Shown here: piece after piece, positions 50,668-55,734 of the stretch | Layout: every line of letters begins with the position of its first letter | Numbering within the stretch: position 1 is the first letter of the stretch | NCBI RefSeq assembly: GCF_019745455.1 | Contig: NZ_JAIETD010000017.1 | Span: 1-64,000 of the forward strand | DNA length: 64,000 bases | From: Methylobacterium sp. | Lineage (GTDB): Bacteria; Pseudomonadota; Alphaproteobacteria; Rhizobiales; Beijerinckiaceae | Direction of reading: 5' to 3' | The notes under the pieces: model-generated | What the model was told of the DNA's origin: nothing | Databases searched by the model: none | What the model saw: the letters and a program-made list of their open reading frames with translations, nothing else | Position numbers and translations under genes: made by a program

Positions 50668-51945
50668 TCATTGCCTTGGCAGCACGCCGCGCATGACGAA
50701 GCCGCTACGCGGGCGCGCAGGGATGTAGGCGAGGTCGAGGGTCAGGTCCTGATCCGGGACCGTGTAGGACATCGTGGCGAGCTCGCCGGCGAGCGTCTCC
50801 ACCACGAACTGGGTGATCCCCTCGCCGGGGCAGCGATGGCCGCTCGCGGCCGACCCGCCGCCATGCGAAATCAGGTTGAAGGCGTCGATCCGGTCGCGCT
50901 CGAACCGGCACGGATCGAACCGCTCCGGCTCATGCCACAGCCGAGGGTCGTGGTTGGTGCCGTAGAGGTCCATCAGCACCCAATCTCCCTCCTCGAAAGC
51001 GTGGCCGCGCCACTCGAAGGGTGCGCGCACTCGCCCTCCGATGAAGGGGATGAAGGGGTAGAAGCGGCGGACTTCCCATGTGAAACGCTGTCGCGCCTCG
51101 TCCCCGCTCCTCAGATCCTCGCGATACTGCGGTTGGTCGCGAAGGGCCATGGCCGCGAACACGACGTAGCGGGCATTCGCCACCGTCGGGCGAAGCACGT
51201 TGATGAGCTCGACGGCAGCCGTCTTCACGTCGAGCAGCTTGCCCTCGGCGTCGCGATGCCCGGCGATCGTGCGGGCGGCGCCGTCCGGCACCTCACGGCG
51301 GCCGGACCGCATCTCCTCGATCATCCGGCGCGCCCAGCGCTCGGTGCGAGCGCGGTAGAGATGGCCACGCCAGTTGCGCGGACCGATCGCACCGGTACCG
51401 TCGACCATCGCGGCGAACTCGGTTGCCCGATCGCACGCCTCCGATGGCGTCAAAGGGAGGCCGACCCATTCGCAGATGGCAGCGGTCAGAACGAAGTGCG
51501 CCTCGTCGAGTAGACCGACCTCGTCCATCCGCGACCAGCGCGATGCCGCCTCGCGCCAGTGCTTCACGACGACATCGGCGAGGCGTTGCAGTGCCTCGGC
51601 GCCGACGAGGGAAAGGAACATCGTCTTGCGCCGCCGATGAGCGTCGCCGTCCATCACCATCACGCTGCCGTGGTCCTGGATCAGCGCGAAGGAGGTGGGC
51701 GGGAGCGCGTGACGACGGGTAAAGCGGTGGTCGTCGTAGAAGTGGCTCGCCGCTTCGGAGCCGGACATGCAGATCGCCCGGCTCAGCATCAGCCGCGTAG
51801 CGAACAGGTCCGAACCATGGCGTCGGCAACGGTTCGAAATGAACGCGTAGCCCTCGCGAAGCAGGGCGAGGGTGCTGTCTGGCGCGCTGTCACGAGGGAG
51901 CGCAGCGCTCCGGCGACGAGCAACGGCTGCAGGGTTCGACGACAT
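50668..51945 (-). CDS. cytochrome P450, CYP152-like fatty-acid peroxygenase
   Basis: SHGGGSAASGHRCPGEGIT heme-Cys loop, INVLRPTVANARYVVFAAMAL (CYP152 Arg-Pro in I helix), YGTNHDPRLWHEPERFDPCRF; whole-length resemblance to P450 BSbeta. Confidence 0.92.
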   Translation of the reverse strand: MSSNPAAVARRRSAALPRDSAPDSTLALLREGYAFISNRCRRHGSDLFATRLMLSRAICMSGSEAASHFYDDHRFTRRHALPPTSFALIQDHGSVMVMDGDAHRRRKTMFLSLVGAEALQRLADVVVKHWREAASRWSRMDEVGLLDEAHFVLTAAICEWVGLPLTPSEACDRATEFAAMVDGTGAIGPRNWRGHLYRARTERWARRMIEEMRSGRREVPDGAARTIAGHRDAEGKLLDVKTAAVELINVLRPTVANARYVVFAAMALRDQPQYREDLRSGDEARQRFTWEVRRFYPFIPFIGGRVRAPFEWRGHAFEEGDWVLMDLYGTNHDPRLWHEPERFDPCRFERDRIDAFNLISHGGGSAASGHRCPGEGITQFVVETLAGELATMSYTVPDQDLTLDLAYIPARPRSGFVMRGVLPRQ

Positions 51946-52444: not shown

Positions 52445-54922
52445 TCAGCGCATACGGCTCCAGAGACCCGCCCTTTCCGAGCGGGCCTGCTCCTCGGCGG
52501 CGAGGAGGTCGGAAGGAGCGTTCTCCGCCGCGCGGGCGCCGCCGGCAGCCAGGATGAGCGACGCGAGATCGTCGCCATCGATCCGGCAGCGCAGGCCCTC
52601 GGGCTCGCCGGCCGCTGCGTCGGCGGGAGCGGCGCAGACGACCTCACGGCGGCGAAGGTAGCGGGCGAGCTGGCGTGCCAGTGCTCCCCGTTCGCCCTCG
52701 ACGCCCGCGAGACGGACGACCCGGCCGCGGAAGGCGAGGGTGCCGGTATCTATGACTTCGGGCACGCCGCGCAGATCCGTGGCGGGCGCGGCTGCGACCG
52801 GAGCCGCCGGTGCCGGCTCCGCCTTCGCGGCGGATGGCCGCTTGCGCGCCTTGGCCATCTGCACTGAGGCACGGGCGATGAAATCGCGAAAGATCGCCGC
52901 CGGAATGTCTCCGCCGCTGACCTTGTTCATCGAGCTGTTGTCGTCGTTCCCGACCCAGACCCCGACGACGAGATCCGGCGTCATCCCGACGAACCAGGCG
53001 TCGCGATAGTCCTGGGTCGTTCCGGTTTTGCCACCGACGGGAATGGTGGCGACCCGCGCCGCCTTTCCGGTACCGCCATCCACCACCGCTTGCAGCGAAT
53101 CGAGCATCATCGTCCTGCTCTCGCCGGCGAGAGCGGCTGCGGGCTTCGGATCGGGCCGGAGATAGAGGGGCTGGGGCGCCGCGCCTCGGATCGTATGGAC
53201 GCTGAAACTCTCCACCGCCCCGCCGACGAGCACGCTGGCATAGGCGCGGGTCATCTCGAGCAGCGTGACTTCGGCGGAGCCGAGGGCGAGGCTCGGCACG
53301 TTCGGCAAGTCCGATTGCACCCCGAGGCGACGCGCGGTCTCGATGACCGCCGGGATGCCGACCTCGTCGGCGATCTGGGCGGCGATGATATTGATCGACT
53401 GTGCGAAGGCGCTGCGCAGGGGCACGGCGCCGCGGAAGCGGTTGTTGGAGTTCTGCGGCTCCCAATCGCCGATCTGGATCGGGCGGTCGACGAGAACGGT
53501 CTCGGGCGTGTAGCCCTTCTCGTAGCCGGCCAGATAGACGAAGAGCTTGAACAGCGAGCCGGCCTGGCGCTTGGCCTGGATGGCGCGGTTGAACTGGCTC
53601 TGCTCGTAATCGCGGCCTCCGACCATCGCCAGGATGGCGCCCTCTTTCGACAGCACCACCATCGCCGCCTGGCCCGCCTTCTTCTTCTCGCCCTCGGCAT
53701 CCATGCGGCGTGCGACGACGCCTTCGGCGAGGCTCTGAAGGTCGAGATTGAGGGTGGTGCGGGCGGTGACGTCGCCGCTCGTATCGGCGAGGCGCTTGGC
53801 GTCGGCCGCGACCATGTCGAGGAAGAAGTTGGTGCCGGGCGGCGTCTCGGGCGGGATGCGCAGGGTGACGGTCGTCGCACGGGCCTTGTCGGCCTCGGCC
53901 GTGGTGATGGCGCCGGTCTCCACCATGGTCTGCAGAACGACGTCGGCGCGCTCCTTGGCGCCGCCGAAGTTGCGGGTGGGAGAGAGCTGCGAGGGCGCCC
54001 GCAGCAGGCCGGCGAGCATCGCGGATTCCGGCAAGGTGAGCGAGGGCGCCGACTTGCCGAAATAGCGCTGCGCCGCCGCATCGATCCCGAAGGCGCCAGC
54101 TCCGAAATAGGCGGTGTTGAGGTAGCCGAGCAGGATCTCCCGCTTCGTCATCTGGCTCTCGGCCTTCAGGGCGAGAAAGGCCTCCTGTAGCTTGCGCCGA
54201 AGGGTCTTCTCCTGGCTCAGCGAGGTCAGGCGGACATATTGCTGCGTGATCGTCGAAGCGCCCTCGCGCACGCCGCCGCTGGCGAGATTACGCCAGATTG
54301 CGCGAGCCAATCCACGCGGGTCGACACCCCAATGCGAGTAGAAGCGCCGATCCTCGATGGCGATGATCGCCTGCTCGAGATGCGGCGGCATGTCGGCCTC
54401 GGCGAGCTTGCGCCCCCGGAACACGCCGCGCGTGGCGAAGACCCGGCCGTCATCGGCCTCCACGGTGATCGCCCGGCGTTCGTTCTCGGTGACGATGCCC
54501 CCGAGCGGCGGCAGGGTGGCGAGAACCCAGATGACGAACCCGCCGAGCAGGATGGCAGCCACTCCGCAGACCGCAAGGACGCCGGTGACGAGAGGCCGCC
54601 TCCGACCCCTCGCAGAGGCTTCGCGCGGGGCTGCATCGACGTCGGGCGCTCCCTGAACCGTCTTTGCCATACCGGCGGCCGCCCGGGCCGACGACGCCTT
54701 CCTGGCCAGGGCCGCGAGTTGGGCGCCGGCGTCGCGACCGCCTCTGCCCGCCGCCCTGGCGACGCCGAAGGCAAGGATGCCGAGCTGCTTTCCGAGTGTT
54801 CGGGCGGCAGCCACGGCCTCGCGGGCAGCGACCTTGGTATCGGGTGCGCCGGTCGCCGAGGATGACGGCGCATCGGCTGCGCCGTCCCGTCCTTCCGTCT
54901 CGTCGGGCTTGGATGGCTGCAT
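52445..54922 (-). CDS. penicillin-binding protein 1A family (transglycosylase/transpeptidase) with C-terminal SNase-like extension
   Basis: AIIAIEDRRFYSHWGVDPRGLARAIWRN, GGVREGASTITQQYVRLT (GT51); RQAGSLFKLFVYLAG (SxxK), AQSINIIAAQIADEVG, VGGKTGTTQDYRDAWFVG (KTG). ATG at 54922. Confidence 0.95.
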   Translation of the reverse strand: MQPSKPDETEGRDGAADAPSSSATGAPDTKVAAREAVAAARTLGKQLGILAFGVARAAGRGGRDAGAQLAALARKASSARAAAGMAKTVQGAPDVDAAPREASARGRRRPLVTGVLAVCGVAAILLGGFVIWVLATLPPLGGIVTENERRAITVEADDGRVFATRGVFRGRKLAEADMPPHLEQAIIAIEDRRFYSHWGVDPRGLARAIWRNLASGGVREGASTITQQYVRLTSLSQEKTLRRKLQEAFLALKAESQMTKREILLGYLNTAYFGAGAFGIDAAAQRYFGKSAPSLTLPESAMLAGLLRAPSQLSPTRNFGGAKERADVVLQTMVETGAITTAEADKARATTVTLRIPPETPPGTNFFLDMVAADAKRLADTSGDVTARTTLNLDLQSLAEGVVARRMDAEGEKKKAGQAAMVVLSKEGAILAMVGGRDYEQSQFNRAIQAKRQAGSLFKLFVYLAGYEKGYTPETVLVDRPIQIGDWEPQNSNNRFRGAVPLRSAFAQSINIIAAQIADEVGIPAVIETARRLGVQSDLPNVPSLALGSAEVTLLEMTRAYASVLVGGAVESFSVHTIRGAAPQPLYLRPDPKPAAALAGESRTMMLDSLQAVVDGGTGKAARVATIPVGGKTGTTQDYRDAWFVGMTPDLVVGVWVGNDDNSSMNKVSGGDIPAAIFRDFIARASVQMAKARKRPSAAKAEPAPAAPVAAAPATDLRGVPEVIDTGTLAFRGRVVRLAGVEGERGALARQLARYLRRREVVCAAPADAAAGEPEGLRCRIDGDDLASLILAAGGARAAENAPSDLLAAEEQARSERAGLWSRMR

Positions 54923-55122
54923 CCGATACGATGTCCTGAACGGCAAGCACGCTCGCCGGTGGGCTGATGGCGTCGGAGCGACACTCTTAGCCGCGTTCGG
55001 CCCGGCGAAGCTAGGCTGAAGGGTAGGGCATGCTCGCCGAGATCTCAGCGGATTGTCTTGACCGCATCTTGCCGAGTCCGCTTCTCGGTGCTTGAAAACT
55101 ATCACTCTCGGAGAAGCCAGCC

Positions 55123-55734
55123 ATGAACGCCACGGATACCCTGCCGAAGACGCTGCGCGACGTCTCGGGCCTCAGCCCGGCTCCCGCGACCCTCGCCGGA
55201 TCGGCGCTCGTGATGATCGACCTGCAGAACACCTATCGCGAAGGCGTGATGCGCCTCGACGGCGTCGAGCCCGCGCTCCGCGAGGCGAAAGAACTGCTGC
55301 ACCGTGCCCGTGACGCCGGCATCCCGATCTTTCACATCCAGCACGATACCGGACCCGGCTCGCCCTACGACATCACCGCGCCGATCGGGCGAATCAGCGA
55401 CGAAGTGGCACCTCAGGGTGACGAGCCGGTGATCGTGAAGAACTACCCGAATTCGTTCGTCGGCACCGATCTCCAGGCCCGCCTCGAACAGGCTGGGGTC
55501 AAGTCGCTGATCCTGGCCGGCTTCATGACGCATATGTGCATCAACTCGACGGCGCGCGGCGCCTTCAACCTCGGCTTCAGCCCGACCGTGGTGGCCTCGG
55601 CCACCGCAACCCGCAACCTGCCCGGACCCGACGGCGCGATCGTCCCGGCCTCGGCGCTCCAGGCCGCGAGCCTCGCGACCCTGGGCGATCTCTTCGCGGT
55701 GATCGCGCCACGGGTCGACACGATCGGAGCCTGA
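55123..55734 (+). CDS. isochorismatase-like cysteine hydrolase
   Basis: ALVMIDLQNTYREGVMRLDGVEPAL; GVKSLILAGFMTHMCINSTARGAFNLG. Active-site Cys in MTHMCI. Confidence 0.93.
   Translation: MNATDTLPKTLRDVSGLSPAPATLAGSALVMIDLQNTYREGVMRLDGVEPALREAKELLHRARDAGIPIFHIQHDTGPGSPYDITAPIGRISDEVAPQGDEPVIVKNYPNSFVGTDLQARLEQAGVKSLILAGFMTHMCINSTARGAFNLGFSPTVVASATATRNLPGPDGAIVPASALQAASLATLGDLFAVIAPRVDTIGA

Follow-up and report, generated by a model that had tools for sequence, protein, structure and literature searches.

A class A penicillin-binding protein (PBP) with an accessory domain of a new type was encoded on the minus strand of the 64,000-nucleotide stretch of Methylobacterium DNA analysed here (the window). 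Its C-terminal tail was predicted by modelling to have the staphylococcal nuclease (SNase) fold, appears to be a dead nuclease, and was, judging from the phylogeny, gained once by this PBP subfamily. By analogy with the UB2H and ODD domains of the Escherichia coli class A PBPs, we consider it rather probable that the tail works as a periplasmic docking or regulatory handle.

The open frame (52445-55105, minus strand, 886 aa) reached back to a GTG at 55105; the scan of candidate starts pointed to an ATG at 54922-54924 as the likely start, giving a PBP of about 825 aa, this start being uncertain. The parts of the protein are listed in Table 1. Transglycosylase and transpeptidase lay on a single chain, as in class A PBPs, and the catalytic motifs of both enzymes were intact (EDRRF..H and GASTITQQ in GT51; SLFK, SIN and KTGT in the transpeptidase). 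The name PBP1A, proposed by the first-pass annotation, holds for the broad NCBIfam PBP1A family (TIGR02074, 553.7 bits, cut-off 508.75) and not for the E. coli type (MrcA/PBP1A model NF008643, 303.5 bits, cut-off 1263). Like the TIGR02074 proteins, the window PBP combined both domains and their motifs; unlike them, it ended in a pseudo-SNase, and it grouped in a clade apart from those class A PBPs tested that lack a tail. The residues in which an SNase-like domain had first been noticed were found at the C-terminus of the 886-aa frame. The extent given for them (52448-52790) was slightly too long: position 52790 already lies a few residues inside the linker, the domain itself (about 105 residues) occupying 52448-52774. 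Linker length varied among orthologues from 36 to 70 residues, an identical cut being applied to each.

Table 1. Parts of the window PBP (positions in the window; residues numbered on the 886-aa open frame).
Feature	Positions	Strand	Evidence
Class A PBP, likely CDS	52445..54924	-	ORF, translation, candidate starts
Hydrophobic membrane anchor, residues 173-194	54524..54589	-	Sequence; topology presumed as in class A PBPs generally
GT51 transglycosylase domain, residues 235-394	53924..54403	-	Pfam PF00912, E=5e-63
Transpeptidase domain, residues 480-743	52877..53668	-	Pfam PF00905, E=2.7e-29
Ala/Pro/Lys-rich linker	52775..52840	-	Sequence and orthologue comparison
Compact pseudo-SNase domain, residues 778-886	52448..52774	-	AlphaFold2, Foldseek, hhalign, residue counts, conservation

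For the fold of the tail, support from the single sequence was weak, whereas support from the family was strong. Alone, the window tail matched the Pfam SNase family (PF00565) with E=0.01 and 16.7 bits, below the gathering cut-off of 21, which may be the reason why the domain is unannotated; a PDB sequence search with it gave no match. Thirty-nine of 51 relatives matched Pfam SNase at E<0.1, and an alignment of 51 tail copies gave an AlphaFold2 model with a pLDDT of 86.5 and a pTM of 0.77. Foldseek returned 116 PDB matches to this model at E<=0.001; the 50 listed were all staphylococcal nuclease with probability 1.00 and TM-scores, by query length, of 0.53-0.62. The profile of the same alignment was aligned by hhalign with the canonical SNase of the same genome (locus L075) over 101 columns (probability 96.4, E=1.1e-9), and a PDB search with the tail profile gave weak matches only, mostly to SNases. 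The SNase-like domain suspected at the end of this PBP was in this way borne out by model and profile, the structural comparison called for in the first-pass annotation giving an SNase fold. The tail is predicted to share its fold and an aligned core with PF00565 and the L075 protein.

The fusion is old and common to several genera. A search of 397 genomes of the bacterial family with the PBP core detected 55 loci in 54 genomes, and the tail was present on 54 of these 55 subfamily PBPs, the exception (genome G011) being truncated where its contig ends; core relatives lacking the tail scored clearly lower. Besides Methylobacterium, fused PBPs were carried by some Microvirga, by a small number of further genera in the family and by one genome from a different family (G263), a distribution that rules out a fusion restricted to a single genome or genus. 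In 385 genomes sampled throughout the class, no further PBP fusion was detected at E<=1e-10. The genome's two remaining class A PBPs were tail-less and common to the whole family; the window PBP is its third class A PBP, restricted to one clade and belonging to a distinct Hyphomicrobiales subfamily. The 29 tailed rows of the core tree, 25 of them fused active PBPs with intact catalytic motifs and 4 pseudo-PBPs (see below), fell into a single clade with support 98/93. The tail was thus confined to a single PBP clade, as a clade-restricted accessory domain is, and several independent fusions are rejected on this tree, which argues for a single gain. The first-pass annotation could not name a PBP-SNase architecture; we likewise found no description of one in the open-access literature, a search that mostly did not reach subscription papers and is weak evidence for them, and the architecture proved not to be peculiar to this protein. 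In Microvirga ossetica (plasmid NZ_CP016618.1) it is a single protein, WP_237050587.1, annotated as “PBP1A family penicillin-binding protein”, the tail going unmentioned.

The tail is under purifying selection and is conserved about as well as the enzymatic core. Its dN/dS was 0.10-0.18 in the window copy against ten of its relatives, with a median of 0.26 when every PBP tail pair in range was taken, which shows the reading frame of the tail to be real. Tail and core identities were 84/81, 76/73, 64/62 and 66/66 % in the nearer relatives; in most of the distant ones the tail was somewhat below the core (e.g. 47/55 %). The tail was present in essentially all orthologues, so that an unconserved extension, which would have spoken against the domain, was not what was found. 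At the genus level, nearly all Methylobacterium genomes held the PBP tail; the fused PBP was missing from a few of them, and so is dispensable in some Methylobacterium.

The same compact domain was also detected on other proteins. One was a membrane protein of about 370-490 aa, found in almost every Methylobacterium genome and in the majority of the Microvirga genomes searched, with an N-terminal domain followed by the only hydrophobic segment, a Pro-rich stretch and the compact tail. Its N-terminal domain was modelled confidently (pLDDT 86.6) and gave no match in a PDB fold search. This protein occurred without the fused PBP in most Microvirga and in genomes G496 and G016, and is therefore not an obligate partner of it. 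The copy of the same genome lay at L119:1551-2912 (minus strand); here and at 20 further loci the gene always lay downstream of one encoding an uncharacterised protein whose C-terminal part is conserved, and at six Microvirga loci rlpA-like and minC/minD-like genes were nearby.

The second type was a pseudo-PBP of about 700 aa from some Methylobacterium (loci L039, L043, L037 and L079 in genomes G020, G024, G036 and G251), in which the catalytic Glu of GT51 was replaced by Gln (AAQDP) and no transpeptidase domain was recognisable. Compared with the fused PBP of the same genome, its tail was 55-64 % identical and its core 35-42 %; it looks like a duplicated fused PBP retained for its tail.

Three further proteins carried the compact tail: two secreted-looking ones from two other alphaproteobacterial families (L117:1614-2981 and L116:2285-3577), the former belonging to another order and having an SH3-like segment before the tail, and one from Microvirga (L115:1700-3202, G702:C71) in which the tail was joined to a long coiled-coil-like region. 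In the tail tree, which was built on 113 columns and is poorly resolved, compact domains formed one group apart from ordinary SNases (99/89); the PBP tails were not one group, and the membrane-protein tails nested among them as a clade. Tentatively, this nesting would fit a transfer from the PBP to the membrane protein.

An unnamed group of secreted or anchored Pro/Ala-rich proteins, apparently widespread in Hyphomicrobiales, ended in a degenerate, non-compact SNase-like domain (L066-L072, L074, L077, L078, L080 and L082-L084). Like the tailed proteins, they had an N-terminal hydrophobic segment, a Pro/Ala-rich stretch and, at the C-terminus, an SNase-like domain that has lost most of the catalytic residues; unlike the window tail, they kept a loop with an extra Cys pair and fell outside the compact clade, and none of the members fetched was fused to a PBP.

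Four observations suggest a docking role: the tail is conserved, it sits at the C-terminus after a flexible linker, it recurs on other envelope proteins, and it was kept on a PBP that has decayed. In the mechanism we propose, the enzymatic domains would polymerise and cross-link peptidoglycan as in other class A PBPs, and the flexible Pro/Ala linker would hold out a small SNase-fold barrel at the presumably periplasmic C-terminus. In the model, the two invariant cysteines of the tail (residues 824 and 840) lay on strands 4 and 5, a placement that makes a disulphide likely, and the barrel is probably stapled by it. The tail would most likely bind a protein partner in the periplasm or outer membrane, and this binding would place or switch the synthase, much as E. 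coli PBP1B is governed through UB2H and LpoB, and PBP1A through ODD and LpoA. UB2H and ODD are clade-restricted domains of class A PBPs on which these regulators dock (PMC3060616). The window tail resembles them as a clade-restricted accessory domain of a class A PBP; it differs in its SNase fold and in being C-terminal, where UB2H and ODD lie between or within the catalytic part, and its docking is proposed by analogy. The module on the membrane protein and on the decayed pseudo-PBP would let both reach the partner of the PBP.

Against a docking handle stands that no partner was found and that the PBP neighbourhood gave no clue to one: of the flanking genes tested from the window, none recurred within 5 kb of the PBP at 16 other Methylobacterium loci. 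The neighbours, which from their sequences we take to be a cytochrome P450-like gene (50668-51945, minus strand) and an isochorismatase-type hydrolase-like gene (55123-55734, plus strand), were both lacking near the PBP at these 16 loci.

Binding to the glycan product itself, with the tail tethering the synthase to peptidoglycan in the manner of SPOR, PASTA or SH3 modules, is the strongest competitor, and we regard it as possible but doubtful. The placement of the tail, at the C-terminus of a cell-wall enzyme and beyond a flexible linker, would suit it, as would the SH3-like segment adjoining the compact domain in the secreted L117 protein; however, we know of no SNase fold that binds peptidoglycan, and the tail matched none of the known peptidoglycan-binding families in Pfam. 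Self- or hetero-association, in which the tails of the PBP, the pseudo-PBP and the membrane protein would pair with each other, is improbable: it would account for homologous tails on several proteins of one genome, but PBP and membrane protein are distributed independently.

The loss of the nuclease residues bears on a further explanation, that the tail is a working or DNA-binding nuclease whose target would be nucleic acid in the periplasm or outside the cell. The catalytic set of canonical SNase (D21, R35, D40, E43 and R87) was not preserved in the tail: in all 91 compact-domain rows mapped on canonical SNase (some genes entering twice), D21, E43 and R87 were absent, the D21 position holding Gly, Ala or Ser; D40 was variable, and R35 was mostly retained. 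The segment from strand 3 to helix 1, which holds the metal-ligand loop, was deleted in the hhalign comparison. The L075 protein, the secreted canonical SNase that the genome encodes separately, had D21, E43 and R87. Together with its score below the Pfam cut-off, the missing residues and the missing loop set the window tail apart from PF00565 and the L075 protein. The fold and the retained R35 position would favour a nuclease, but catalytic activity is rejected on the residue counts, and we consider this explanation very unlikely even where DNA binding is included. The substitutions of catalytic Asp and Glu noticed at the outset were real and universal in the compact-domain family, and the conclusion that the tail cannot run the known SNase mechanism, and is a pseudo-nuclease, is well supported by the aligned sequences. 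The first-pass annotation had preferred a binding module to a nuclease: the tail does not appear to be a nuclease of the known mechanism, and its binding is what we infer.

A chance likeness to SNase, or a read-through or gene-model artefact, could be argued from the sub-cut-off Pfam score of the window sequence, but its probability is negligible: profile, predicted fold and selection all contradict it, the tail keeps an uninterrupted frame across dozens of species and is included in the single annotated M. ossetica protein, and orthologue presence, Foldseek matches and dN/dS rule it out.

The docking handle remains our preferred explanation, and it has a wider version, which we put forward tentatively: the compact pseudo-SNase may be an envelope address tag of the Hyphomicrobiales, bringing the active PBP, the dead PBP and the membrane protein to a shared periplasmic receptor that controls peptidoglycan synthesis. 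If so, the dead PBP would be a natural competitor or regulator, and a nuclease fold put to new use would underlie Lpo-like control in bacteria other than the gamma-proteobacteria. The compact domain is a case of a secreted-nuclease fold recruited as a non-catalytic module of the cell envelope, most strikingly in the pseudo-PBP, where the PBP decayed and the tail was kept. How cell-wall synthesis at the poles is controlled is a question of current interest in Hyphomicrobiales, the group to which Methylobacterium belongs, and a conserved, clade-specific and unannotated PBP domain offers a direct bait for a regulator of this kind.
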